Source: Zygnema cylindricum
Taxonomy: Eukaryota > Streptophyta > Zygnematophyceae > Zygnematales > Zygnemataceae
Direction of reading: 5' to 3'
Length of the DNA stretch: 64,000 nucleotides
Assembly (NCBI GenBank): GCA_037447655.1
Contig: JBBHKE010002482.1
Coordinates: 1 to 64,000, forward strand
Shown: positions 8,463 to 64,000 of the stretch, one piece after another
Position numbering within the stretch: position 1 is the stretch's first letter
Layout of the letters: each line of letters starts with the position of its first letter
Notes under the pieces: generated by a model
The model's input: the letters and a program-made list of their open reading frames with translations, nothing else
The model's database searches: none
What the model was told of the DNA's origin: nothing
Position numbers and translations under genes: made by a program

Positions 8463-9758
8463 GTCTTAGTATTTCTCGGTCTGTTTTGGACCTGCAGGAA
8501 TATCATCCGGACCTGCAAGAGTATCATCTTCTGGAAGACCCGGATAGTTAGAAAGATGAAAGTCATCAGAATTGCTTGACTCAAATTTGATTCTAACTAA
8601 CTTTGAGGATTTGAACGGATCTACTGACTTCCCTTCATCCATAGCTACCAGGTGCTTTACTAGAATGAATATCTTCTCTCTTTAGATCATACACTCTATA
8701 CCCTTTTACATCCTCATCATATCCCAGCAAGTATCCGGGTTTCCCTTTAGGGTCTAATTTCTAGTTACATTTATCTGTATCTAAACTGAAGACTATACTA
8801 TCGAAAACCATTAAGTGAGATAGATCTGGTTTTCAGCCGGTCCATCTCTCATATGGAGTTTGGCCTTTCACCGCCGAAGTAAGTACTCTATTTCTCAAAT
8901 AATAAGATTTGCTCATAGCTTCGGCCCAGAACCTTTTTCTTATTCATTTGTCTGACAACATACTCTCTGCACTATCATTCAGTGACCTATTCAATATCTC
9001 GGCAATACCATTCTGTTCCGGGTTTTTCGGAACTATCTTTTGATGTTGCACACCATCCTCTCTTAAAAACTCCTCAAACTGATTGGAGGTATATTCCCCT
9101 CCATTTTCACATCTTACTCTCTTTATTGAGGTCTCGTGAAGCTTCTTGGCCCATGCCTTATATTGTTTGAAGTACTCAAGAGTTTATGATTTGTTTTTCA
9201 AAAAATTACTTTGGGGTACCGAGACGAATCATCGGTAATGGTTAGCATAAATCTTTTCCCTCCGGGTGATGGCACTCTTGCCGGTCCCCAAATGTCCGTG
9301 TATACCAAATCAAAAACTTTCTCTCCTTTTTAGGTTGCTTCCTTTGGAAATGGTAATCTATGTGCTTTACCTTGAGCACACCCACTACAATCACTTAAAT
9401 TCTCATTTTCCCCAAAGATTATCCCTTCAACTACTCCCATCTTTTTTATTTCTTTTAGCTTTTCTAGATTCACATGCCGAAGTCTCTTATGCCACAACAT
9501 AATATCATTGACACCAACATAGTAAAGTTTGAGTATTTCATTACTTAAAGCGAGCCTGAACATTCATTGGCTACCTTTCTCAACAGTGAAATATACATCT
9601 TCCTCAAAACTTGTTGTAAAACCTCCTTTTCTGGTGCTAGTTTCAAAACCTTTATCATCTAATACAGATGTAGAGATAAGGTTTTTGTTTAGCTCCGGAA
9701 TAAACAATACATTGAAGAATGTAACTATTGAGGTTTTCCCTTCCACTATGACATTCAA
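8463..9758 (-). pseudogene. Element A integrase remnant
   Basis: The N-terminal zinc-binding region is readable at 9563-9330 (HKRLRHVN, later CSGCAQGKAH), matching the copia integrase HHCC domain. From about 9330 to 8463 the catalytic core and C-terminal region survive only as short frame-shifted pieces aligning with the better copies (elements E, F and H). A stop near 9564 separates the protease-integrase linker. Integrase would insert the element cDNA into chromosomes; this one cannot be made intact. Confidence 0.75.
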
Positions 9759-34838: not shown

Positions 34839-35351
34839 CGGCCGTGCGATTACAATGTAATTTAATCGTAACCGTAATAAATACATGCGCGGTATTTGTT
34901 TCACTTACGAAACAAATGCACGGTATTGATTTTTAATCCGTACCGTAATTCGTACTTTATATATTATCGGATCTATGTATCAAGTAATCAATTATAGTTA
35001 AATGAATTATCGTACGTATACATATTTAATTAATTATCAACCTATATACTATGTAACATTAATCCTAGACTTAACGGCTAAGGCTACCGGCTATTTCCTA
35101 TCTGCCCGCCGGTAGGTACAAGGATCAATTCCTGTCGCCGGCACATTCCTTTTAAATAAATAAACCCTAACTAATATAAATTTCCCGTAAACCTCAGGAT
35201 AGCCTAGGTAGCCATGGCTCTAGCTTCCTCTCCAATTTCTCAGTGACTGCGACAAGTTTGAGAGTTGGAGAGAGATGTTAGAGATAGACTGCCTCGGCTT
35301 CTTTATTTCTTTTCAGACCTAGAAATTACTTTAAAACCATTAGTTTCTACA
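34839..35351 (-). repeat. Left part of F's 5' LTR, now inverted
   Basis: Read on the minus strand it begins TGTAGAAACTAATGG (35351) and ends at the CGGCCG site (34839), 513 bp. It stops exactly where 28903-29444 begins in LTR coordinates, sharing GGCCG. Its outer end abuts the unknown ORF at 35352. Confidence 0.8.
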
Positions 35352-37021
35352 GAGCGGGCTTGCATTTGATCAGACCCGACATCAATGACAAGCTGTCCCT
35401 TCGTCCTCGCATTCATTGCAGCCTCGTATAACCTTGCCCTGACTTGAAACAAGAAGCTGCTGACTCGCCTCGTGAGCAAGAGATCACCTGTGCTCGTGGA
35501 GCGCACCACATTAATGCATGTCTTTACGACCTCGTAATAGTTGGGCCTCTCCTTGTCAGACCTCCACATGAAGGACTCCACTCTCGCCTTGCCATCGTCG
35601 TCCAACCCGAGCACGCACTCGTATATGAGCCCTTCTCGCATGCCAGGCATTGCACTAAAGAACCGAGTACTCTGGCCCTGCCCGACTTTACCATGCGCAC
35701 AAGAAGGAGGCATCGAGCCCAGCTCCCCGTCCATCATCATGAGATCCACAATCGACTTCTTCATCCGGTACGTGAGTGAACTAGCCTTGTCCATCACAAT
35801 CACTCCGTCGGACGGCAGGTCTGATGTCATCCTTGCAATGATGGCATCCCGCAGTGTGTCATAGTCATGTCGAGTGATGTGGTTAGCCAGCAGTGTGAGC
35901 CCGGAGTCATGACTGCTTGCCAGTGGAACCAGTGACCCCCTAGTTGACACCACCTTAATGAAGACAAGCCGACTATCCGTCAACTGCTCCGCCCTCACCA
36001 CATTAGGGACGACCGTCCATTTGTGCAAGGACTGCTTGACCATGAAGCCTTTGACAGTGAGGCTCGAGTAATTGCGCACACTGAACCAGACGGACCCTCC
36101 ATTGACAAGCTTGCAGTGCTTAGCGTCCGCCTTGATGCGATAGATGTTATTGGACGAGGGAGGCATGAACACATCACGAACAAGCCTGCATGAACTCTTC
36201 AGCTGAGCCATCAAGCTGGCACCAAAGTATGGTCCCAGTGACATCGGGCACGACACTAATGTGCACGTGATCCCCAATCCATTCAGCACGTCGGACTCAG
36301 TGGGCACGCAGGAGGGACTACCATCAGGACTCCACTTCAGCTCACACGCGTACGCCTTGTCACGCATGTACCTGCGAGTCTTGCACACCCAGCATGACAT
36401 CCTCCTTACCTTCTCCACTATTGACACGTGGTATAACTCTGAGGTGCTGCAATGCCATGAGGGAGTAGTGCCAAAAACCAGCCTCACATCCACCGACCGA
36501 CTGAACACAACGTGAGGGCATACTTGCAAGCTGGACAACTCAGCCTTCGCAGTGCATTCACTCTACACTCTTGTGCGCCACCTGGTCCTGCCAGACCGCA
36601 CGACTCTTGACTCAGTGATGCTGGAAGGCACACCCACCTCGTCTCACTCACTCTTGTCCCATCCTGCACCACACTCGAAAGCACATTGTGCTTCTGCACT
36701 ACTGGTGAAGCGAAGCCCATACTCCTCAATCGGCAAGGAATCAACATGTCCAACGTCAACCCACCTAACCGCATGTGAAACCACACCACTGACAGCACGT
36801 GCCTGACTGACGTCTTCACGACTGCCCGACTGTCCAATCCTTGAATCGCCAGACTCGAGTGCTTCAGCTATCATGCGTGAGAGCACATCAGGAGGAGGAC
36901 AAGAGCACACCTCGAGGTCAGCTGCCTCGTCTGCTCCAACCTTACGACTAACAAGCCTCCCCCTCTTCCACCTATTGCACAACGCACACATCACATCATC
37001 CATCACGTCACCTCCTTGCAT
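35352..37021 (-). pseudogene. Unknown Cys-rich protein, 3' end cut by LTR
   Basis: I do not recognise this protein. One frame runs from an ATG at 37021 to the LTR at 35351, about 555 codons, with a TGA at ~36644 and a TAG at ~36564. The interval between them begins with a GTGAGT splice-donor-like sequence, so a short intron is possible instead of decay. The N-terminus has CALCNRWKRGR and later CSC, a zinc-finger-like Cys pattern with a Trp. A second Cys group reads SCWVCKTRR. The rest has no repeats or membrane segments. The last ~16 codons of the open frame are LTR sequence, so the natural C-terminus is lost. It could be a DNA-transposon protein or host gene fragment. Confidence 0.45.
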
Positions 37022-53586: not shown

Positions 53587-54103
53587 CTAGTCAATCTTTA
53601 ATTTCATACCACACTTCTCCCTGCAAAAAATTAGCTTAGGGGGAGGGACAGGTTTGGTCATCATATCTGCTACCATCTCACTATCTGGTCTGTACTCTAA
53701 ACTGATTATTTTATTTTCTACTTTTTCTCTAACAAAGCTGAGTCTGATGTCCATTTGTTTGGCTTTAAAATGATGTTTAGGATTGGCAGAAATAGCGATT
53801 GCTGCCTGATTATCACAAAATATTTTCTGCACACCACTCTTAAGGTGACTAAGCTCACGAAGCAAAGACTTGACCCACATCAATTCTTTTACAGCAGAAC
53901 AAGAGGCCATATACTCAGCCTCCATGGTGGACTGAGCAATAACCTTTTGTTGTTTGCTACTCCAACAGCAAGCCCCATCACCCACATATAATACATATCC
54001 AAAAGTGCACCTCCTCATCGGAGCATCACCATAACTGGTATCACTCCAAGTAGTGATGTCAGTATTCTCCCCACCCAAATGCAACCATAGATCCCTAGTT
54101 CCT
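53587..54103 (-). pseudogene. Element J RNase H fragment
   Basis: Reads GTRDLWLHLGGENTDIT, TWSDTSYGDAP, SSKQQKVIAQS, EAEYMAS, FCDNQAAIA and ends KLKID before the polypurine tract. The open frame continues upstream into K sequence, which is fortuitous. No stop is seen within the fragment, so J was fairly young when K inserted. Confidence 0.85.
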
Positions 54104-54303
54104 TGTCGAGCGTGCCTGGGAACCAGGAGGTTCAGGTAAGATGTCCAAAGGAGGTGTGCATGAGAAACCTGCAATCCACCCCAAATGCTGATGCTTCCCC
54201 GGATCCGTGACCATGCCCATCTCTGTTACCCCCCCAGGGATATGCATAGATAGTTAGGAGGAATGGAGTGGAAAAGAAAAGTATCCAGTACCCCCCCTGA
54301 TTT
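54104..54303 (-). repeat. Terminal ~200-bp repeat of K, outer copy
   Basis: It is about 97% identical to 55491-55691. Its outer edge is the element end. On the minus strand it runs from AAATCAGGGGGGGTACTGG to CGCTCGACA. Confidence 0.8.
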
Positions 54304-55490
54304 TGTGCTACTCCGCTGGAAGCTCACTAAATGCCACACTCCTAGCTACTCTCCAAAGAATAGGAAGGAAATGAGAGTCGTCCGATCTGTTCCGCAAAAA
54401 CTCCGACAAACCCAAGGAGGACCACAAGAGTGTGCAAATAACTTCCACGCAGAAATAGATAAATAACAAATATCGGCTTTTCAGATTAAACAATATCACC
54501 TTGCCCCAGAGAATGGAATTAAAGATAGAAATAAATGATTATGGTGAAGCGAATTCACATACCCCGGAGTACAACGATGACCAAACTCAGCAGAAGAAAA
54601 CCTCTCCCAATGGCCCCGATGACAGGTATGAGTCTCCCTCACCCTCCCGGTTCCCCCGCAAGGATCTGACAATACTCTTCTTAGTTTCAAACAGCGGAAG
54701 TCCAAACCGCCCAAATAGGAGATAGTGCCAACTACCCACCCATGCTACTGTCTCCACAAAAGACAATCCAAAACAAAGATGGCAATAGAGTCAACGACAC
54801 AATGCAACCGTTCTCCAACAGAAAGATTGATTCACTTCTCTGAGGGTTTTCTCAGGAGACAGTACTGAAAAGCCACCTGTCTCCTTCGGCCCCAAGTGCC
54901 TTATACAACCAGAGTTTGTCCTACTGCAAGTTCAAAAGTCAAAGCAATTTAACAAGCCAATCAGCGGCCAGCAATTGTTATCGTCCTGACATAAGACAAA
55001 ACAGACTGTACTACACTCAGGTCTAAAATATAGACGACTGGTTTCGGCTGGATTGGCGGCCGAAGGTCCTTCTATATTACACAAAATGGAAACAAAGTTT
55101 TGACTCGACGTGAAACCGCCTAACTTTGTCCCAATGTCATAAATGCTTGGCCCGGTTATGGGGCCTGAACTAACATCCTATTGACAGCTAACAGTAAGAT
55201 CTACGGGATAATCCCAAAGGTTACGTGTCGTTCTCTAATGTATCCCTCTACTAGAGCTACATAGAACACACAATATAATAGAGCATGCACTTTGCACCAG
55301 ACTAACTCCTCAGTTCGACCTCCGTTTAAGGTGAACTAAATTGCGTAGGGCTCCAGGGTGAAAATATAAAGATCTGATCCGGCTGATTGTCCTTTTCCTC
55401 CTCCGTACGCTAGAGTTCGTACAAAGTAGAAGCAAGCCTCGGAAATCCTGGGAGTGCAAATGTGCCGAAGATGCACACAAGCTTGACAGC
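54304..55490 (-). other. Non-coding terminal region of K (between the 200-bp repeats)
   Basis: No coding region is recognised. A TTTATATTTT stretch on the minus strand near 55370 could be a TATA element. The region could be the body of a ~1.6-kb LTR or material trapped between two short LTRs. No primer-binding site is seen next to the inner repeat. Confidence 0.5.
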
Positions 55491-55691
55491 TGTCGAGCGT
55501 GCCTGGGAACCGGGAGGTTCAGGTAAGATGTCCAAAGAAGGTGTGCATGAGAAACCTGCAATCCACCCCAAATGCTGATGCTTGCCCGGATCCTTGACCA
55601 TGCCCATCTCTGTTACCCCCCCCAGGGATATGCATAGATAGTTAGGAGGAATGGAGTGGAAAAGAAAAGTATCCAGTACCCCCCCTGATTT
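55491..55691 (-). repeat. Terminal ~200-bp repeat of K, inner copy (LTR start)
   Basis: It lies directly downstream of a strong polypurine tract on the minus strand, so the 3' LTR should begin here. The shared sequence includes the last AAATCAGGGGGGG of that tract. Confidence 0.75.
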
Positions 55692-55703
55692 CCCCCCCCT
55701 CTT
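55679..55703 (-). other. Polypurine tract of element K
   Basis: The minus strand reads AAGAGGGGGGGG, then AAATCAGGGGGGG, just downstream of the pol stop (TAA at 55734). It would prime plus-strand DNA synthesis. Confidence 0.75.
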
Positions 55704-55733: not shown

Positions 55734-57362
55734 TTAACCGCCAAACTCGCAGTCCCCACAGAACCACGGATTTGCCGGTTGAGAGCGGGGCTCCCAATTC
55801 AGAGGTAAGCAGCAGTCATGCCACCCTTGGTGACAGCGGTTACACACCAACAGGAGGTCGGGTAAGGATGACATATGGCAGGCAGAGGAACAGGCTGGGG
55901 GGTCTGCAAAGTAAGTGAGGTGGAAAGTGGGTTCATCCTCTAACCCTCGAAGATAGCAAGGAGCCACATTGATCTGATTTTCTTTAATTTTGCGGCCATC
56001 CTTCCCTTCCAAGGTAAGAAACCCTTTGTTGGAGACCTCCACAACTTTCAGAATCACCCGTCCGGCCGAAATGTCCAAAGTATCCTGCTTCTGTTGCATG
56101 CAATACACAAAATCCCCTGGCACAAATCGCCGTTGCCGTGGGACATAATTGGCGCTCCGTCGTTGGGAATACCAGAGTTGATCCATGTGCTGAGCAGCCT
56201 GTAAATTGCCCATGGCCAGAGGTATTTCCCGCTCAAATACCTTCGCCCTGTTGGCAATCAGTTTCTCGACCGTCCCCCGATTGTCCATCTCCGGTAGAAC
56301 AACCGCCTAAGCTGATGCAGCCCTTGGTAGGATGGGATGTCGGCCGAAGAGAATGAAGTAAGGGCTATAGGAGTGGAGAGATGCCTGCCTGCTGAACCTG
56401 TATCCCATTGCAATCCAAGGCACCCGTGTGTCCCATTCCCCCTAATCCTCTTCCATCGCATATTTTCGTAGTGACCGCTTCACTGTCTGTATGCACCTCT
56501 CGGCCAATCCGTCGGCTTGGGGGTGGTCTCGGCTGGTCAATCTGTGGTCAATGAGGCACTTCTCCAGAAGGTTAGAAAATTCTCCGGCAAACTCTGACCC
56601 CTGATCCGTCAGAACTTCGGTCGGGGCTCCAAATTGAGACAACACTCTCTGCAAAAATGCGTCCGCGATAGCTTTGGACTCCTTTCGGGGAAGAACCACC
56701 AATTCAATCCATTTAGAGAAGTGTTCTATCATGACCAGAACAAAACGGTTCCCCCTCCGGCTAGTGGGAAGTGGTCCTAGCAGATCCAGGGACCATCTGT
56801 AAAACATCCCCCGGATGGGGAGGGAATGAAGCTCAGTCCCACCCTTTTTTTCAAAAGCTGCTTTTACCCCGTCGCTTGAAGGGCACGTTTGCACCACACG
56901 ATTGACCTGGGCCCCGCAACCCATGCCACCAATACGACCCTGTGACTAGCGAGGTGGTTCGTTTCTGTCCGAAATGCCTGCATTGTTGTTGAAGCCGAAC
57001 AATGAGCGTTTCCCGATCTGCCGGAGGAGGAACCACTTTCCTCGTCCCATTGGCCCATTTTCGGAGAAAAATGCCTCGGTCCCATTCATAAGCCGCCATT
57101 CGGTTCTGAACACGGGATAATTGACTTCCGGCAAGGTGGGGTAGAGGAGAGCCCTTCTGGATAGATTGGAGGGAATCGTTGTCATTCCATATATCTTTCC
57201 GGCCGACTCCAATGGGGGCCTGCCCCTCTACATCTGCAGCAAAAGTTGACAGTTCTCCTTCGGCCCGAGGCAGCCAGATAAAAGCAGAGGAAGCCCGGAT
57301 AAGTCCCAGGTTGAGCTCAGGGTCCTCGTCATGTCGCGCCCTAGTAGAGTCTCTGGTGGAAG
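55734..57362 (-). pseudogene. K integrase with C-terminal PHD finger
   Basis: The N-terminal zinc-binding region (LQQQCRHFGQKRTTSLV, then WWHG) is followed by a frameshift near 56905. The second Cys of the expected Cys pair reads Ser (QTCPSSDG). The catalytic core has RWSLDLLGPLP (first Asp), LTDQGSEF (second Asp) and HPQADGLAERC (Glu, 34 residues after the second Asp), a normal retroviral-type core. TAG codons at 56442 and 56307 interrupt the sequence after the core. A C-terminal strand-rich region (GDFVYC...ISAGRVILKVVEV, LTLEGKDGRKI) resembles the gypsy GPY/F-type module. The last ~50 residues form a PHD finger, listed separately. No chromodomain is present. Confidence 0.85.
55749..55892 (-). 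other. PHD-type zinc finger at the integrase C-terminus
   Basis: In the 184-codon terminal frame the eight ligands are C133, C137, C149, C152, H157, C160, C177 and C180: the C4HC3 order, with canonical CNRCHQGWHDCCL and WFCGDC parts. The first pair is C-x3-C rather than the more usual C-x2-C. PHD fingers generally read histone H3 tails; here it could steer integration to chromatin. The ligand set is complete, and no stop falls inside it. Confidence 0.8.
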
Positions 57363-57363
57363 G

Positions 57364-57735
57364 GTCCGAATTCCGGCTGAGTCCGTCGGTATTCCCATGA
57401 ATCTCCCCGACTCTATGGATGATGCTGAAATCATATTCCTGCAGGATGAGAACCCATCTGGCCAGCTTTCCAGTCAACTTACTGTTCTCCATGATCCATT
57501 TGAGGGGCTGGTGATCCGTAATAAGGGTAAAGTGTACTCCATAGAGGTAAGGCCTGAAGTGTTGGATGGCCCAAACCGCGGCCAGTAATTACCCATAGTA
57601 ACTGTTGTAATTCCCCTCGGCTCTGTTATCACTCCGGCTTGCGTAGGCTACTACATACTCAGCCCCTGCGTCGTCCAATTGAGCCAAAACTGCTCCTAAT
57701 CCAAACCTGCTCCAATCTGTATAAAGGAGAAAAGG
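57364..57735 (-). pseudogene. K RNase H
   Basis: Gypsy RNase H: FLLYTDWSRFGLGAVLAQ (first Asp), EGNYNSYYG followed by TAA at 57589 where the catalytic Glu of the family normally sits (GAA to TAA), then LLAAVWAI, TDHQPLKW (third acidic residue) and the DGLSR end. The stop removes a catalytic residue. The downstream sequence stays in the same frame. Confidence 0.85.
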
Positions 57736-58692
57736 CCGCTGGTGATCGGGCATCCGAAGCACAGGATGCTGTTTGAGGGAATCTTTCAGGAATTGGAACG
57801 CTATCTGCTGTTCTTCCTTCCACTGCCACTCCTGGTCCTTTCGCAACAATTGGTTCAATGGCTGAGCGTGACTACTGAATTCAGGAATAAACCGCCGGTA
57901 ATAGTTGGCAAGGCCCAGGAAAGTACGCAGAGCAGAAATGTCTTGCGGGGGTGGAAGAGCGTCTAGGGCTGCCACCTTAACCATGTGGGGACCCACTGTC
58001 CCGGGAGTCACCTCATGACCCAGATAAACAATTTTCTGCACCCCAAAGATGCCCTTCCCCGGGTGACATTTCAAACCCGTTGCTTGGAGTGCCTAGAGAA
58101 CGATCTGTATGTGCTCCAAGTGTTCTTTGAATGTCTTGGAGAAAATGATAACATCGTCGATATAACACCATGCGAAATCAATTCCCCGGAGAGCCTCGTC
58201 CATGGCCCTTTGGAATTTGGCAGGTGCATTCTTGAGGCCAAACGGCATATACAGCCATTCATATAGCCTGGATCCGACCCAAAAAGCAGTCCTCTCTCGG
58301 TGTTTCGGCTCCATTGCAATCTGGTGGAATCCATTTTTCATATCCAAAGTGGAGTAGATAGTGGCCCCAGCAAGAGAGTCGAAGATCTCTTCCGGGGTAG
58401 GCATAGGATAACGGTCGGAGACAGTTGCCGCGTTGAGCATCCGATAGTCCCCACACATCCGGAAATCTGCAGTTTTTCCGGAGGAGTCTTTCTTTGGCGG
58501 GAGCACGGTTGGTGAGGCAAACCCATGTAGTCCTGTACTCTCCTGAACCAGCCTTGCTTCCACCAAAGTCTGCACCTTTGAAGTGATGAACTCCTTCTCC
58601 TTGAAACTGATAGGGTACTGTTTCTGCCAAACAGTAGCTGTCTCATCGATCAGGTCATAGATCCCTACATCTGTGTCAGACCAGGCGAACAC
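57736..58692 (-). pseudogene. K reverse transcriptase
   Basis: It opens directly after a TAG (58693) with VFAWSDTDVG, a gypsy RT lead-in. By residue from 58692: ASPTVLPPKKDSSGKTADFRMCGDYR motif region at ~59-83, STLDMKNGFHQI (catalytic Asp117), FGLKNAPAKFQ (~151-160) and the YIDDVIIFS catalytic motif (177-180). A TAG at 58093 interrupts before ALQATGLKCH. The connection segment (YLGHEV, LRTFLGLANYYRRFIP) continues in frame. All catalytic residues are present. Confidence 0.9.
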
Positions 58693-59117: not shown

Positions 59118-60077
59118 AGAATGCAAGAGAATGTTTTAGCACCCAGGAGATTGCATTTAAATCCATACTTTGTCCGATTAAACTGCACCTTTTTGAGGCC
59201 GATACCCCCGGCGCCGCTGTGGTTCCCTGTTGAAACCCCATTGCTTGTTCCCGTTCTGTAATATTCGGCGCTGTCCACGTGGCGGTTGTACTGTCAAAGA
59301 TCATTCCTGGTGCGCCCTTCCGGTAAGCGTGGCTGTTTGGAAAAGATACCAGAGTTGGTAGGGCCCTCCGTGGATACCCAGGCTTATTACAACAGAAGAA
59401 GGGTGCTTTGTCGGATGTGATCACCGGGTGGCCATTCGCCCCGGTCCGAGGATCTGTTGGACCGTGATGTTGGGATCCGTAACCTGTGTTCTTAACAGCT
59501 GTTGGAGGATTGGAAGAGGAACCAAGTTGGTCCAATATGCCCGAACTCTGTGGGCTCTTGATCCGATCTGAGCTGCATCAAAAACTATGGGAGTTCCTAG
59601 AACCTTGGTCACTTGGTTCCAGCTGTTGACCACCTGTTTTCTCTTATCATCTATGGGGTGTACGTTTTCCAAGACGTACCCCATTGGTGTGTCCTAGCGT
59701 TCCTGTAACCTTGTTATTAGTCTGGTCATTTGAAAGAAAATTATGCTACGGACGTCCTGGTGTCCTCGGCCCTGTCCAGCTAACGAATACCCCTGGCATG
59801 GCCATCCAGCGACCACCTGGTCTACCCTTCCGAGCTTTTCCAAATGGGAATTTGTGATATTATCCACATTCTGGGGAAGCGTGCGATGAGAGTTAGACAT
59901 GGCGGACACCGGGAGTTGCTGTGGGTAAAGTTGGTGCAGCTGTTGCAGGCGGTACTCACTGACTGCACGGGCGTCCGGGTCAATCTCGACTGCCGAGTAA
60001 GTTTCTATTTGATATCCGGCTTTCAAGACGGCTTCCAGATCGGAACTAATGCCAGAAAATAGAGATAGAATCCTAAG
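59118..60077 (-). pseudogene. K cytosine-5 DNA methyltransferase domain
   Basis: About 320 codons with the C5-methyltransferase motifs in order. Motif I: LRILSLFSGISS (S-adenosylmethionine binding). Motif II/III region: VEIDPDARAV. Motif IV: GWPCQGYSLAGQGRG, catalytic Cys codon at 59796-59798. Motif VI: ENVHP (~59669). Motif VIII: SRAHRVRAYWTN (~59555). Motifs IX-X region: NITEREQAMGF and KRCSLIGQSMDLNAISWVL. The AHRVRAYWTNL and final motifs look most like the DNMT3/DRM group, while PCQ resembles DNMT1 and bacterial enzymes. A TAG (59694) and a one-base frameshift (~59424) break it. It lies in frame between protease and RT, so it is part of the polyprotein and not a separate gene. The expected activity is methylation of cytosine in DNA. 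Confidence 0.88.
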
Positions 60078-60281
60078 TCCTGAAAGCGGGATTTGTAGTG
60101 ACACCACTTGTCGATTAAAGTCTTTCCCTTTGTTAGGAACCGTTGGAAGTTCCGACCGGGGGACTTTTGCTGCTCCGGGTGATATTGCAGCCAAGCTCCT
60201 GTCCACTTCCCGCCGAAGTGTGGCCATCTGTACCAATCGGTTCTGATACTCCCTTTCCCACCGCTTGGAAATAGGGAATTG
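60078..60281 (-). pseudogene. K protease-methyltransferase linker
   Basis: About 65 residues after the TAG at 60282 (QFPISKRWEREYQNRL, then a Ser/Pro-rich stretch), in frame with both neighbours. Nothing recognised. Confidence 0.6.
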
Positions 60282-60938
60282 CTAGATAGAATCAACGATA
60301 TCGTTAGAGTATTTGAACAACTCTGAGGGGGTTGAAGCAGAGTAGACGGGATAGCATCCAGACACCAGAACAGTCTTTTTTCCCCGGTTCCACAAATCCA
60401 AGGGGACCACCACTTTTGTTCCTTCAGGATCCTCAGGGTTTAAGACTGTAACTTGTTCCTTCCATATGCTCAACTCCATGTTCAATCTTGTCCACGTAGC
60501 CATACCCAGCAAAATTTCAAATTGCTTACCTTCCATCACTAGGAAGGGGAGCCAAATCTGCACATGTTGGCGTGCGTCGTTAGCAAATTCGATTTCCATG
60601 GCTTTTATGATCCCATATACTGGTTGGCTGCCACTGCTGACCATGCTCAAGCACATGTCACTTGGACTGATTTTTGGCCGGAGTTCCTCGGGCATTTGTT
60701 GTAACGCTGATGTAGTTATTAGGTTTGGAAGAGCTCCCGTATCCACTACTACATCTTGGTACCCGCCGTATCCATTAAGTTTAAAATTTCCCGTCCTGTT
60801 GAGAATAAGGGTCACCGAAAGGGCCTTATAATCCCTATCTGCCATAGAGGTTTTTGGTTGTGACGACATGAAGACTGTCTTGGGCGATGCTGCCAACGCG
60901 ACGCTCTTCCTCATAATGTGAATTTCTTCCCCTAATGC
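60282..60938 (-). pseudogene. K aspartic protease
   Basis: Retropepsin-like. Counting from the Met at 60914, VVVDTGALPNLI gives D58-T59-G60 as the active site. EILLGMATWTRLNMEL (~140-155) is the second conserved block. A TAG at 60939-60941 separates it from gag in the same frame, and it ends at a TAG (60282-60284). It would cut the polyprotein. Confidence 0.85.
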
Positions 60939-63900
60939 CTAAATGAGGGCTTCTTCGGGCAGATTGTGGGAGGAGGCAAGTGTTTTGACATGCGTCAAAG
61001 CGTAGGGCATCAATTGTCGTACTAGCATAACTGCCGGTTTGGAGGAAGGAGGGAGAGCTTTGGGCGATGAAATGGGTGAGTCCTCGTCTTCCGATTTCTC
61101 CTGTTCCCCCCCCCCTGCTTCCTCACTTTCTGCGTCAGAATTTCCCGTAGGAGGTGTAATTGGCGGATCTGTGAACGGTCTCTCAGCCATGTATCTGTCG
61201 AACCACTCCTGATCTGTTTCAGTGGTTGAAGTATTTCCTTTCGGCTGTGTCTTCTTGTAATCTTCAAAATCGGGAGGAAGTTTCTTCGGAGGCGGAGGAG
61301 GCGGGTTTGTCGGCTTGATTCCCAGTCCAATGTTACTGTTCAGAAGGACTGCTCGCGGGGCAAAGGATAAGGGGCCTGTGGCTTTGCGACTGTGGTCCTT
61401 TTGTTCCATCGATTGCTTGTCTTTCCTTTGGGAGGACGTGGTAAAGCGCAGTTGCCTGCGACTGTCCCCTACACCAACGTTCCATGCTCCGGACAGAAAT
61501 GTCCTAGCATGTTGAGCCTTTGGAGGCTCCAAATCCCAACCCATCAGGTCATCATCATCTCCACCCAATGTGGTCTGCTGCTCCAGCTCCGCTAGCTGTT
61601 GTAGCAGTTCTTGTTTTTGTTTCTGCAGTTTCTGAGCCGGCGTAAGAGGTTGAGGAGTGCGGGCAGTGGATCTCAGTCGTAGAGCGGCCAGTTCCGTTGC
61701 CAAAGCGGCCAACTGAGTGCTTTGTTGCTGAATGATTCGTTCCGGTGTCAGTCTGCTGGGGCCCGGTTCATTTGGAGATCGTCCCCAGGGATACAAAAGT
61801 TGCAGTGGCAGAGGATTAACGGCAGTTTCCCCTTCGCCTGTAAACAATGCATACTGCATCATCTCCTTAGGAACCCCATTTTTCCGAAAGCATTGCCCCT
61901 CTTTGTGGCCCATGAACCCACAAGCTTCACATTTTGATCCTTCAGTGGTATACTTCCCCCTTAGCTCATTCGAGATTTGAGCGTCATCAAATTTTGGAAG
62001 TCGGATTTGTCTCAACTGGGATTGAGACATTTTGGCGGTTTCAGAGCGTGGAGTAGGTTTATAGGTTTCTTTAGTGACCGGGGTTCGGTCTCCTCCTCCG
62101 CTTCCTTGCTTGCGTTCTTGCTGTTTCCTTGTCCTTTCCGCACGCTCCCTCTCAAACTCCTTCTGCTTGATGGCGAGTTCTGGTTTGAGCTTTCGGGGGC
62201 ACCTCTTCCATCCGTGACCGGGCTGGTTACAGTTCAGGCAGTCGTAAAGAAATACTTTTTCATCCCCCCCCATTGCAGGTTCTGGTCGGGCAACCGCTTC
62301 CTGTTTCCCTTTAAGCTTCCGCAAAGCTTGCAGTTCTGTCTGTTCGTCGTGGCTGAGCGTTGTTTCCCCGGCGAAACCTGCAAAGTTGGCTCTGGATTTT
62401 CCGGTGACAGCCTTTTCTCGTGCCTCGCTATTAACAAAATGATCATACAATTTCATTGCAGCCAATGAAATTTCTTGAGCTGTGGGATTTCGATCGTGTA
62501 TGGCCTGACTGGCACTCCAATTGTCTAGAGCAGCCTGCCCCGTTGGCCCGAAGGAATTTCGAACAGCGACATAATATTTGGTAGCCATAGCCGGTGTATC
62601 GATGGTGGACAGTTTGGTCTTCTGGCAGAGGCTGGAGAGTCGGTTGAACAGCGTCTGGGGAGTTTCATTCTTCAAACAGCGGAAGTCTGTGAACTCCTTG
62701 ATGGCAGTTTCATTCCTTTCTGTGTAAAGGAGTCTCCAAGCGTCCAGAAGAGTGGTACAGGGATTGGGATTGGCAACCATCCGGGTTGCCGCTTCAGCTG
62801 CTTGTACTGCCTGAAGGTGGTTGACGTAGGCCCTGCCTTGGGCCTGAAGTTTCATATCCATGGTGAAAGTGGGGGTGAGAGGAGCTGCGGCTGCGGCGGC
62901 CAGGTCGGCTGCTGCTTGAAGAGCCTCGGCGTCCAGATCCGGATCCGATATTTTGATACTGGGGGCCATCAACAGAGGTTGACGTTCCTTGTAATCGGCC
63001 AAAGCTCCTCCGGCTAGATAATTGACCATCATCGGAAACAGGGTTGTTTCAAAATCTGCAGGAATGGCCCCTCCCCTGTATTTGTTGATTTCAGATTGGG
63101 TGAACGACTTCCACAACAATTCGAAATCAGAGAAAGCGATTCCCGAGCTATCTCCTGTGAAGATCCTTACGTCCCCCATTTTTTTTCCCTCCTCTGCAAG
63201 GTTGGTGAACTGTGAAGAGGAGGTTCCGGTTGGGCTAACAAACTGAACCGGTGAGATTACCCCTGGATCTGCGTTGTCTGGTTCGGGCCCGACTCCTTCT
63301 TCGGTAGAGGGAGCGGTCTGACGAGAGATAGTACTTCCCCCCACTGAGAAAGTTACGGTTACTGGTGGGATAGTGAGATGACCAGTATCTCCCTGGAGTT
63401 GGCCCTTGGGAAACGAGGAGCTTATCACCTTGGGAAAAGCTGCCCGAAGTCCTGCCCCTCTATACCCAGGAGATGCCTGTTCCCCCCGGCGAACTGTTTC
63501 CACCGAGGGAATGTTGAGAATAGGTTTAGTCACCGGTGGTTCTTGAGGGATTGGTGGAGAAGGGGATGGAGATGGCCGAGGACTACGAGGGAAAGGGGTC
63601 TGTCTCCGTGTACGCCTACTGGAGGTTTCTGGTGGCGGAGTTCCTTCGCTAGAACCGGGAGAACGTCGGTGAGGAGGAGAGTAGGCAGGAACGTCGTACT
63701 TGTAGGGTAAGACAGGTGGTCCCGGTGACCCACGAACCGCAGCGGCCGGAGAAACAGGAGGCGAAGGAGAGGATGCCTGAGGTGGCGATGGAGGAGGAGT
63801 GGTAAGTCCGAGGGAAATGTGTAGTCTCTGGTCGGGTTGTAGCTGCACCACGGCTTCCACGGTAGAAGATCCCTTGACCGAGACAGCTGTAGGGAGACCT

Positions 63901-64000
63901 GTAGCTGCGGCTACCGGACTTTTCGGCAAATCTGCACCCACCCCACTTTTGTTAGGCCCTGTTGTTTCCTCCCCTTCCCGCTGAAGAGGAGATTCTGGTC
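60939..64000 (-). CDS. K gag polyprotein with two CCHC zinc knuckles (5' end outside window)
   Basis: More than 1,000 open codons. The frame stays open to the window edge, so the GTG at 63941 is not the real start. The N-terminal ~230 residues are Pro/Ser-rich and probably disordered. The capsid-like region (VRIFTGDSSGIAFSDFELLW, ~265, through ~540) follows. Two CCHC knuckles are CLNCNQPGHGWKRC (568-581) and CEACGFMGHKEGQC (671-684). A Gln/Leu-rich coiled coil lies at ~725-785, and an acidic Pro-rich tail follows. It ends EEALI, then TAG. The role is particle assembly and RNA packaging. This is the only K domain without an internal stop or frameshift in the window. Confidence 0.85.
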   Translation of the reverse strand, partial: PESPLQREGEETTGPNKSGVGADLPKSPVAAATGLPTAVSVKGSSTVEAVVQLQPDQRLHISLGLTTPPPSPPQASSPSPPVSPAAAVRGSPGPPVLPYKYDVPAYSPPHRRSPGSSEGTPPPETSSRRTRRQTPFPRSPRPSPSPSPPIPQEPPVTKPILNIPSVETVRRGEQASPGYRGAGLRAAFPKVISSSFPKGQLQGDTGHLTIPPVTVTFSVGGSTISRQTAPSTEEGVGPEPDNADPGVISPVQFVSPTGTSSSQFTNLAEEGKKMGDVRIFTGDSSGIAFSDFELLWKSFTQSEINKYRGGAIPADFETTLFPMMVNYLAGGALADYKERQPLLMAPSIKISDPDLDAEALQAAADLAAAAAAPLTPTFTMDMKLQAQGRAYVNHLQAVQAAEAATRMVANPNPCTTLLDAWRLLYTERNETAIKEFTDFRCLKNETPQTLFNRLSSLCQKTKLSTIDTPAMATKYYVAVRNSFGPTGQAALDNWSASQAIHDRNPTAQEISLAAMKLYDHFVNSEAREKAVTGKSRANFAGFAGETTLSHDEQTELQALRKLKGKQEAVARPEPAMGGDEKVFLYDCLNCNQPGHGWKRCPRKLKPELAIKQKEFERERAERTRKQQERKQGSGGGDRTPVTKETYKPTPRSETAKMSQSQLRQIRLPKFDDAQISNELRGKYTTEGSKCEACGFMGHKEGQCFRKNGVPKEMMQYALFTGEGETAVNPLPLQLLYPWGRSPNEPGPSRLTPERIIQQQSTQLAALATELAALRLRSTARTPQPLTPAQKLQKQKQELLQQLAELEQQTTLGGDDDDLMGWDLEPPKAQHARTFLSGAWNVGVGDSRRQLRFTTSSQRKDKQSMEQKDHSRKATGPLSFAPRAVLLNSNIGLGIKPTNPPPPPPKKLPPDFEDYKKTQPKGNTSTTETDQEWFDRYMAERPFTDPPITPPTGNSDAESEEAGGGEQEKSEDEDSPISSPKALPPSSKPAVMLVRQLMPYALTHVKTLASSHNLPEEALI

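Follow-up and report, generated by a model that had tools for sequence, protein, structure and literature searches.

Retrotransposons are usually targets of DNA methylation, whereas the elements considered here carry a methylating enzyme themselves, which raises the question of whether a cytosine-5 DNA methyltransferase (DNMT) belongs to such an element, how it would be made and what it would act on. The window, i.e., the whole stretch of 64,000 nucleotides analysed here (positions 1 to 64000 of Zygnema cylindricum contig JBBHKE010002482.1, C1870 below), contains a DNMT-carrying element on its minus strand, running from 64000 down to 54104; the full element starts outside the window, at contig position 66535. 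Taken together, our observations describe a dead, probably recombinant copy of a DNMT3-carrying retrotransposon, in whose subfamily a stop codon is probably read through and the Pol-borne DNMT would most likely methylate the element's own cDNA.

Gypsy-type elements carrying a DNMT are an already known kind, represented in the literature covered by KnitGypsy-Dnmt3 of one green alga, Klebsormidium nitens, which has a DNMT3 within a gypsy-type Pol and DIRS-like repeats (de Mendoza et al. 2018, PMC5890265). Methyltransferase capture by retrotransposons, to which the preliminary description referred, is on record there. The same source, as far as it was covered, describes expression of the Klebsormidium enzyme in yeast with no detectable methylation, a result that its authors call inconclusive. 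In the portions covered, streptophytes and dinoflagellates are spoken of in a 2025 study (PMC12344493), and green algae are named among the hosts of methylase-bearing elements in general (PMC6338049).

The domain order of the window element on the minus strand is gag, protease, DNMT, reverse transcriptase (RT), RNase H (RH), integrase (IN) and PHD finger, followed by the repeats:

60942-63998, minus strand: gag frame, cut by the window edge, with two CCHC-like knuckles recognized by eye
60285-60938, minus strand: aspartic protease frame (profile match at 60501-60755, PF13650 Asp_protease_2, E 0.0014, below the cut-off)
60276-60284, minus strand: in-frame TAG (60282-60284) with CAATTC (60276-60281), kept in the family; probable programmed readthrough site
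59118-60095, minus strand: DNMT3-type cytosine-5 methyltransferase (PF00145, E 1.2e-9; motifs; two-fragment alignment with relatives)
58099-58497, minus strand: reverse transcriptase (PF00078 RVT_1, E 2.1e-25)
57433-57822, minus strand: RNase H with one stop within (PF17919 RT_RNaseH_2, E 2.1e-22; PF17917, E 9.5e-18)
56520-57027, minus strand: integrase (rve core at 56520-56801, PF00665, E 2e-13)
56914-57027, minus strand: H2C2 zinc-binding part of the integrase (PF17921, E 7.5e-4, below the cut-off)
55749-55883, minus strand: PHD finger at the integrase C-terminus (PF00628, E 0.0014, below the cut-off)
55692-55699, minus strand: G-rich tract preceding B1, possible polypurine tract
55491-55691, minus strand: repeat B1
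54304-55490, minus strand: repeat A2, starting GC-TGTCAAGC after B1, 91% identical to A1
54104-54303, minus strand: repeat B2, the 3′ end of the element, ending in ...GCTCGACA, 97.5% identical to 55491-55691

The G-rich tract may serve as the polypurine tract, and repeat A1 lies outside the window, at C1870:65351-66535. The gag frame had no Pfam match in the profile search, and no start codon was found within 32 codons past the window edge. Three TAGs (60939-60941, 60282-60284 and 59694-59696) interrupt the frame from gag to DNMT, the last of which disrupts the DNMT, as does one frame change that falls between about 59577 and 59421; the integrase has a frame change between its rve core and its H2C2 zinc-binding part, and the remaining Pol contains additional stops and frame changes. 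The window copy is decayed and dead. It is probably also a recombinant, because its 5′ flank is the RT of another DNMT element, its 3′ flank is copia (boundary at 54103, directly beyond repeat B2), and the A1/A2 distance (0.082) is four times the B1/B2 distance (0.020).

The preliminary description had placed a cytosine-5 methyltransferase between the protease and the RT of a Ty3/gypsy-type element, which is confirmed by the PF00145 match, the protease upstream and the RT, RNase H and integrase downstream. The upper bound of its interval of 59118..60938, however, is where the protease frame begins; the DNMT itself starts at about 60095. Similarly, the protease does lie upstream in the DNMT frame, as it had claimed for gag and protease together, but the three TAGs that break the frame from gag to DNMT went unmentioned.

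With regard to the identity of the enzyme, the Pfam profile search suggested in that description returned the PF00145 match (59697-60281, minus strand), which strengthens from E 1.2e-9 to E 1.9e-13 once the TAG at 59694-59696 is read through. The motifs follow the unrearranged order that had been described, with motif I as LSLFSG, motif IV (PCQ) at 59793-59801, motif VI (ENV) at 59661-59669, motif VIII as AHRVR and, after one frame change, motifs IX-X down to about 59118; PCQ, ENV and AHRVR are intact. Against solved structures, the best match of the window protein was DNMT3A (E 5.3e-14, compared with 2.4e-5 for HhaI), and a profile of nine relatives matched DNMT3A at 1.4e-24, 4onj (annotated as 'DNA methyltransferase' and presumably a plant DRM) at 1.4e-14, HhaI at 2.9e-12, DRM2 at 1.6e-11 and DNMT2 at 5.5e-9, while DNMT1 was absent from the 57 matches of this profile. 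The predicted structure of the DNMT domain of one relative (P0012) has a mean pLDDT of 90, and a fold search of this model against the PDB gave DNMT3 structures in 50 of 50 among the matches listed. By profile, motif order and modelled fold, the enzyme is thus assigned to the DNMT3 type, closest to DNMT3 among the C5-methyltransferases.

Conservation was assessed in 67 element enzymes (58 of the 62 DNMT-matching relatives described below, seven copies of this genome, the window and the related contig L078), the same set being used for the DNMT tree. In this alignment the catalytic Cys and the Glu of ENV are each kept in 66/67 enzymes, the sole exception for both being a Pleodorina protein (P0103) that is misaligned or damaged there, and each of the two Arg of motif VIII is kept in 65/67. 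The residue before the catalytic Cys, the Pro of motif IV, is Glu in 46 enzymes, Pro in 13 (including the window) and another residue in eight; a change from PCQ to ECQ is therefore seen in many element enzymes, including subfamily K2 of the same genome, with the catalytic Cys retained. As judged by codon comparison, the DNMT evolves under purifying selection, with dN/dS of 0.129 (C1374-C544), 0.151 (C1344-C783) and 0.156 (C1407-C783) in the three informative pairs (C1344-C1407 differ by two changes only, and the remaining pairs are saturated at synonymous sites), alongside 0.10 (C1374-C544) and 0.02 (C1344-C783) for the RT. The enzyme is likely to be catalytically active. A phage source was considered and rejected, P0013 being without a match in 50,697 phage records.

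In the 352.8-Mb assembly, 123 of 782 candidates were scored for PF00145 and all 123 lay above the cut-off, a count that may include host genes. Eleven further copies were annotated, chosen from this list for their long frames or because they adjoin the window, as does L009. All 11, selected as they were by their DNMT match, have the domain before the RT, and copies lacking it, which would have spoken against the preliminary description, were not among them; RNase H and integrase follow the RT in 10/11, L009 being cut in the RT. Two subfamilies can be distinguished: K1 comprises the window, C544 and C1374, with L009 more distant, and K2 comprises C1344, C1407, C449, C829, C1915, C2577 and C783, as well as C82, whose DNMT is 77% identical to that of C1344. 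Between the subfamilies (C1374 and C1344), DNMT identity is 42%. Open frames reach 1525 aa in C544, 1520 aa in C1374 and 2395 aa in C1344, and DNMT, RT, RNase H, integrase and PHD finger share a single frame in L019 (K1) and in L011 (K2); the PHD finger is below the cut-off in L019 and above it in L011 (PF00628, E 3.6e-10). Chromoviruses, Ty3/gypsy elements with an integrase chromodomain, likewise have a chromatin-reader-type domain at the integrase C-terminus, but a chromodomain there and a PHD finger here, and this finger may be the chromatin-targeting part of the element. Directly 5′ of the window's element, at C1870 about 66531-71990, L009 is a second DNMT-carrying element with gag, protease, the kept TAG, DNMT and a cut RT, i.e., a truncated copy.

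The boundary between protease and DNMT was examined in 31 stretches (L007 and L029 being one place) and could be located in 26 of them, among which are the window and C1374; the DNMTs of these 26 are 51-100% identical to that of C1374. All 26 window-type boundaries have an in-frame stop, which is TAG in 24 and TAA in two (L034 and L045), and CAATT follows directly in 24/26, the exceptions being L030 and L034. The boundary was not located in L005, L007, L029 and L031; in L004 the linker was matched in its later part only, and no stop was seen there. L004 and L005 are of K2 type, and K2 copies lack the boundary stop (as in the 2395-aa frame of C1344), which shows that part of the family does without readthrough. 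The type I readthrough context of the tobamovirus type is UAG CARYYA (PMC5382211, as far as covered). The window context, UAG CAAUUC, has 5/6 of the positions, the missing final A counting against readthrough; an exact 6/6 match, UAG CAAUCA, occurs in L078, but after the DNMT. L078 is a 9285-nt contig filed, probably wrongly, under a cyanobacterial bin, and carries a related element (DNMT identity 45-46%) in which gag-protease-DNMT (1162 aa), TAG CAATCA and RT-RH-IN (1047 aa) follow each other in the same frame; its gag, protease and PHD finger were identified by eye. Unlike sites of the tobamovirus type, the putative site here belongs to a retrotransposon and borders a DNMT domain. RNA structure was dropped as a readthrough signal, being clear in only one of six 60-nt sequences after the stop (L003, z -4.4; the other five -0.2 to -1.8), and 122 nt of the window gave z -1.2. 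The hairpin predicted in L003 occupies the 60 nt after the TAG at 1054. In viral contigs the stop-context pattern was found in two contigs, both without any element domain. A separate pattern search was too loose to be informative, matching 4209 times forward and 4080 times reverse where the control gave 3768 and 3764.

Several readings of this boundary can be weighed against each other. That the DNMT is a fragment inserted once into an unrelated element has practically no chance of being right and is ruled out by the 123 scored matches, the identical order in 11/11 annotated copies and its recurrence in proteins of Klebsormidium, Closterium and metagenomes. Readthrough of the boundary stop is likely, given that the frame is kept across the stop, that TAG and the following CAATT each occur in 24/26 boundaries and that L078 has the exact CARYYA; production of DNMT-Pol from another transcript, or by reinitiation or internal initiation once Gag-protease has been made, would agree with an in-frame ATG that the window copy has about 20 codons past the stop and with the inconsistent RNA structure among copies, but we regard it as rather improbable. 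It is far less probable still that TAG is a glutamine codon in this host. The majority of stops in the window copy are indeed TAG, but the frames of C544, C1374 and C1344 are free of TAG over 1525, 1520 and 2395 aa and the window's copia elements, translated with the standard code, also give long frames, and the glutamine reading was rejected on these grounds. Besides, private C>T changes of the window copy relative to C544 and C1374 are in excess at CHG (31/461, against 35/1236 at CHH, p 5.7e-4; CG 15/307, p 0.07 against CHH; private T>C 25/1782), and therefore several of its TAG stops would be decayed CAG. In C544 the corresponding p values are 0.03 for CHG and 0.007 for CG, and C1374 has few private C>T changes (CHG 7/432, CG 5/289, CHH 12/1209). 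The C>T excess is as expected if old copies were methylated at CG and CHG sites, but it does not show self-methylation.

With readthrough as the preferred reading, Gag-protease of subfamily K1 would end at the kept UAG, and some ribosomes would pass it to give Gag-protease-DNMT3-RT-RNase H-integrase-PHD, so that the DNMT would be made as part of Pol, packaged with the RT and, most likely, set to methylate freshly made cDNA prior to insertion, which the DDE integrase would carry out at the TG...CA ends with a 4-bp duplication. A kept, probably read-through stop beside the DNMT would then be a handle on enzyme dose and packaging. Own cDNA is put forward as the main substrate with some reserve, as a good possibility. 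The preliminary description had suggested that the element may methylate its own DNA copies, or use host marks to hide or tolerate its insertions. An enzyme serving mainly another purpose, be it methylation of host DNA or RNA or the damping of rival elements or viruses, appears less likely, if far from negligible: the covered parts of PMC5890265 and PMC6338049 discuss effects on the host epigenome, antiviral roles and, for LINE versions, RNA as a substrate, and the change of the motif IV Pro to Glu in 46/67 enzymes may mean an altered substrate or activity, but in open frames the enzyme is fused to RT and integrase, which would place it at the cDNA, and the window subfamily retains this Pro. 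With many open copies in one genome, self-methylation of cDNA and its purpose become directly testable.

The repeats have the split layout A1-coding-B1-A2-B2 in C1344, C829, C1915, C449 and the window with L009 (comparison of 5′ and 3′ pieces), and C1407 has B1-A2-B2 without A1 in the fetched piece. In C1344, A (931 nt) is 100% identical between its two occurrences, and the insertion is therefore recent; B (about 242 nt) is 99.6% identical. The ends are TGTC...GACA (TG...CA), and 4-bp target duplications flank three of five complete copies: TTGG (C1344), AAGG (C829) and CCCT (C1915). Counting against the best explanation, C449 and the window copy have no target duplication, and C2577, C783, C544 and C1374 have A1 and B1 but neither A2-B2 beside B1 nor a target duplication; C1374 has another B-A 3.7 kb further on. 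The B1/A2 junction reads ACGACA-GC-TGTCA in five pieces of this genome and in L078 (6/108 loci) and CTCGACA-GC-TGTCA in the window, and with two nucleotides separating the inverted ends it is similar to the joint found in two-LTR circles of retroviruses. If the GACAGCTGTC junction truly goes with a DDE integrase, a circular or permuted cDNA stage would be implied, otherwise known from tyrosine-recombinase elements. In L078, positions 1-127 and 9159-9285 are identical over 127 bases, so that the two contig ends join up; a single A and a single B region are present, and either the assembly collapsed the repeats or the element occurs here in circular form.

As for classification, the elements share with Ty3/gypsy the order gag-protease-RT-RNase H-DDE integrase (gag without Pfam match) and, in 3/5 complete copies, TG...CA ends with a short target duplication, but they have split repeats instead of the same full LTR at both ends, and are therefore filed as gypsy-type Pol with DIRS-like repeats rather than as standard LTR elements. 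With DIRS they have the split direct repeats in common, but an rve integrase and 4-bp duplications in place of a tyrosine recombinase and no duplication. SymbioDIRS-Dnmt3 of dinoflagellates, as described in the covered part of PMC5890265, accordingly resembles them in its DNMT3 within Pol and its A-coding-B-A-B repeats, but differs in its tyrosine recombinase. The closest counterpart is KnitGypsy-Dnmt3, which the same partly covered source describes with a DNMT3 in a gypsy-type Pol, DIRS-like repeats and purifying selection, all found here as well; its DNMT is about 42% identical to the copies of this genome. The boundary stop, the target duplications, the B1/A2 junction, the PHD finger and a second domain order were not found in the portions of PMC5890265, PMC6338049 and PMC12344493 that our partial literature coverage included, and neither were carriers in Closterium, Chlamydomonas eustigma and Pleodorina.

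Three protein searches yielded at least 130 relatives, the third contributing its best 120 of 602; fifteen hits labelled Cordylochernes were excluded from relative counts, and nine of them rooted the RT tree. A DNMT match is present in 62/130 listed relatives, before the RT in 20, after it in 36 and in pieces without RT in six, with Closterium, Klebsormidium nitens, Chlamydomonas eustigma and Pleodorina starrii among the named carriers. The Closterium, C. eustigma and Pleodorina carriers lie outside Klebsormidium, and relatives in other green algae with two domain orders call into question a capture confined to the Klebsormidium lineage. The DNMT-before-RT order is common to Klebsormidium, Closterium and metagenome proteins, and the second order is RT-RH-DNMT-IN. 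In the RT-RH tree (120 tips: 110 of the 130 relatives after length filtering, nine copies of this genome and the window), 35/35 RT-RH-DNMT-IN tips fall into one clade (0.97), which includes five DNMT-less proteins and whose sister (0.998) consists of P0128 and K. nitens P0094 (KFL_009030040); the latter has the same DNMT-RT-RH-IN order as the copies of this genome, but its RT groups apart from them. In the DNMT tree, all element enzymes group together (0.96), apart from DNMT3A and four bacterial enzymes, and support for the separation of the two orders is 0.85 and 0.54; a single DNMT3 capture is suggested by this tree, which includes one host DNMT3. Among DNMT-less relatives (Cordylochernes excluded), 48/53 start within 160 aa of the RT, as expected from a stop or a contig end in front, two cases that look alike; P0064, P0095, P0113, P0115 and P0116 have long upstream parts with no DNMT match and probably lack the domain. 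The P0012 query found no relative in viral contigs, where an alignment-based search turned up 29 loci, with 29% identity across about 210 residues in the top two. In genome contigs the alignment-based search gave 31 loci, of which L078, a clear relative (45%), and four bacterial loci, the outgroup of the DNMT tree, were used.

A possible, rather speculative history would be one old gypsy-type lineage with a single DNMT3 capture, either before the main green-algal groups or by exchange between them, and one later move of the enzyme from before the RT to between RNase H and integrase, in which the UAG site would set enzyme dose by placing it on the Pol side (K1) or the Gag side (L078) or by being absent (K2), and the DDE integrase would act on split repeats.

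Elsewhere in the window, 5800-54103 is occupied by many nested Ty1/copia copies and fragments with a mutual identity of 77-96% in the compared parts, one fragment terminating exactly at the 3′ end of the DNMT-carrying element. An open frame of 419 aa at 35303-36562 (minus strand) has a weak match to the C-terminal domain of mRNA capping enzyme (E 0.023, below the cut-off), and a low-complexity CT-rich tract at 1884-2783 leaves three forward frames open, with translations rich in Ser-Leu-Pro.
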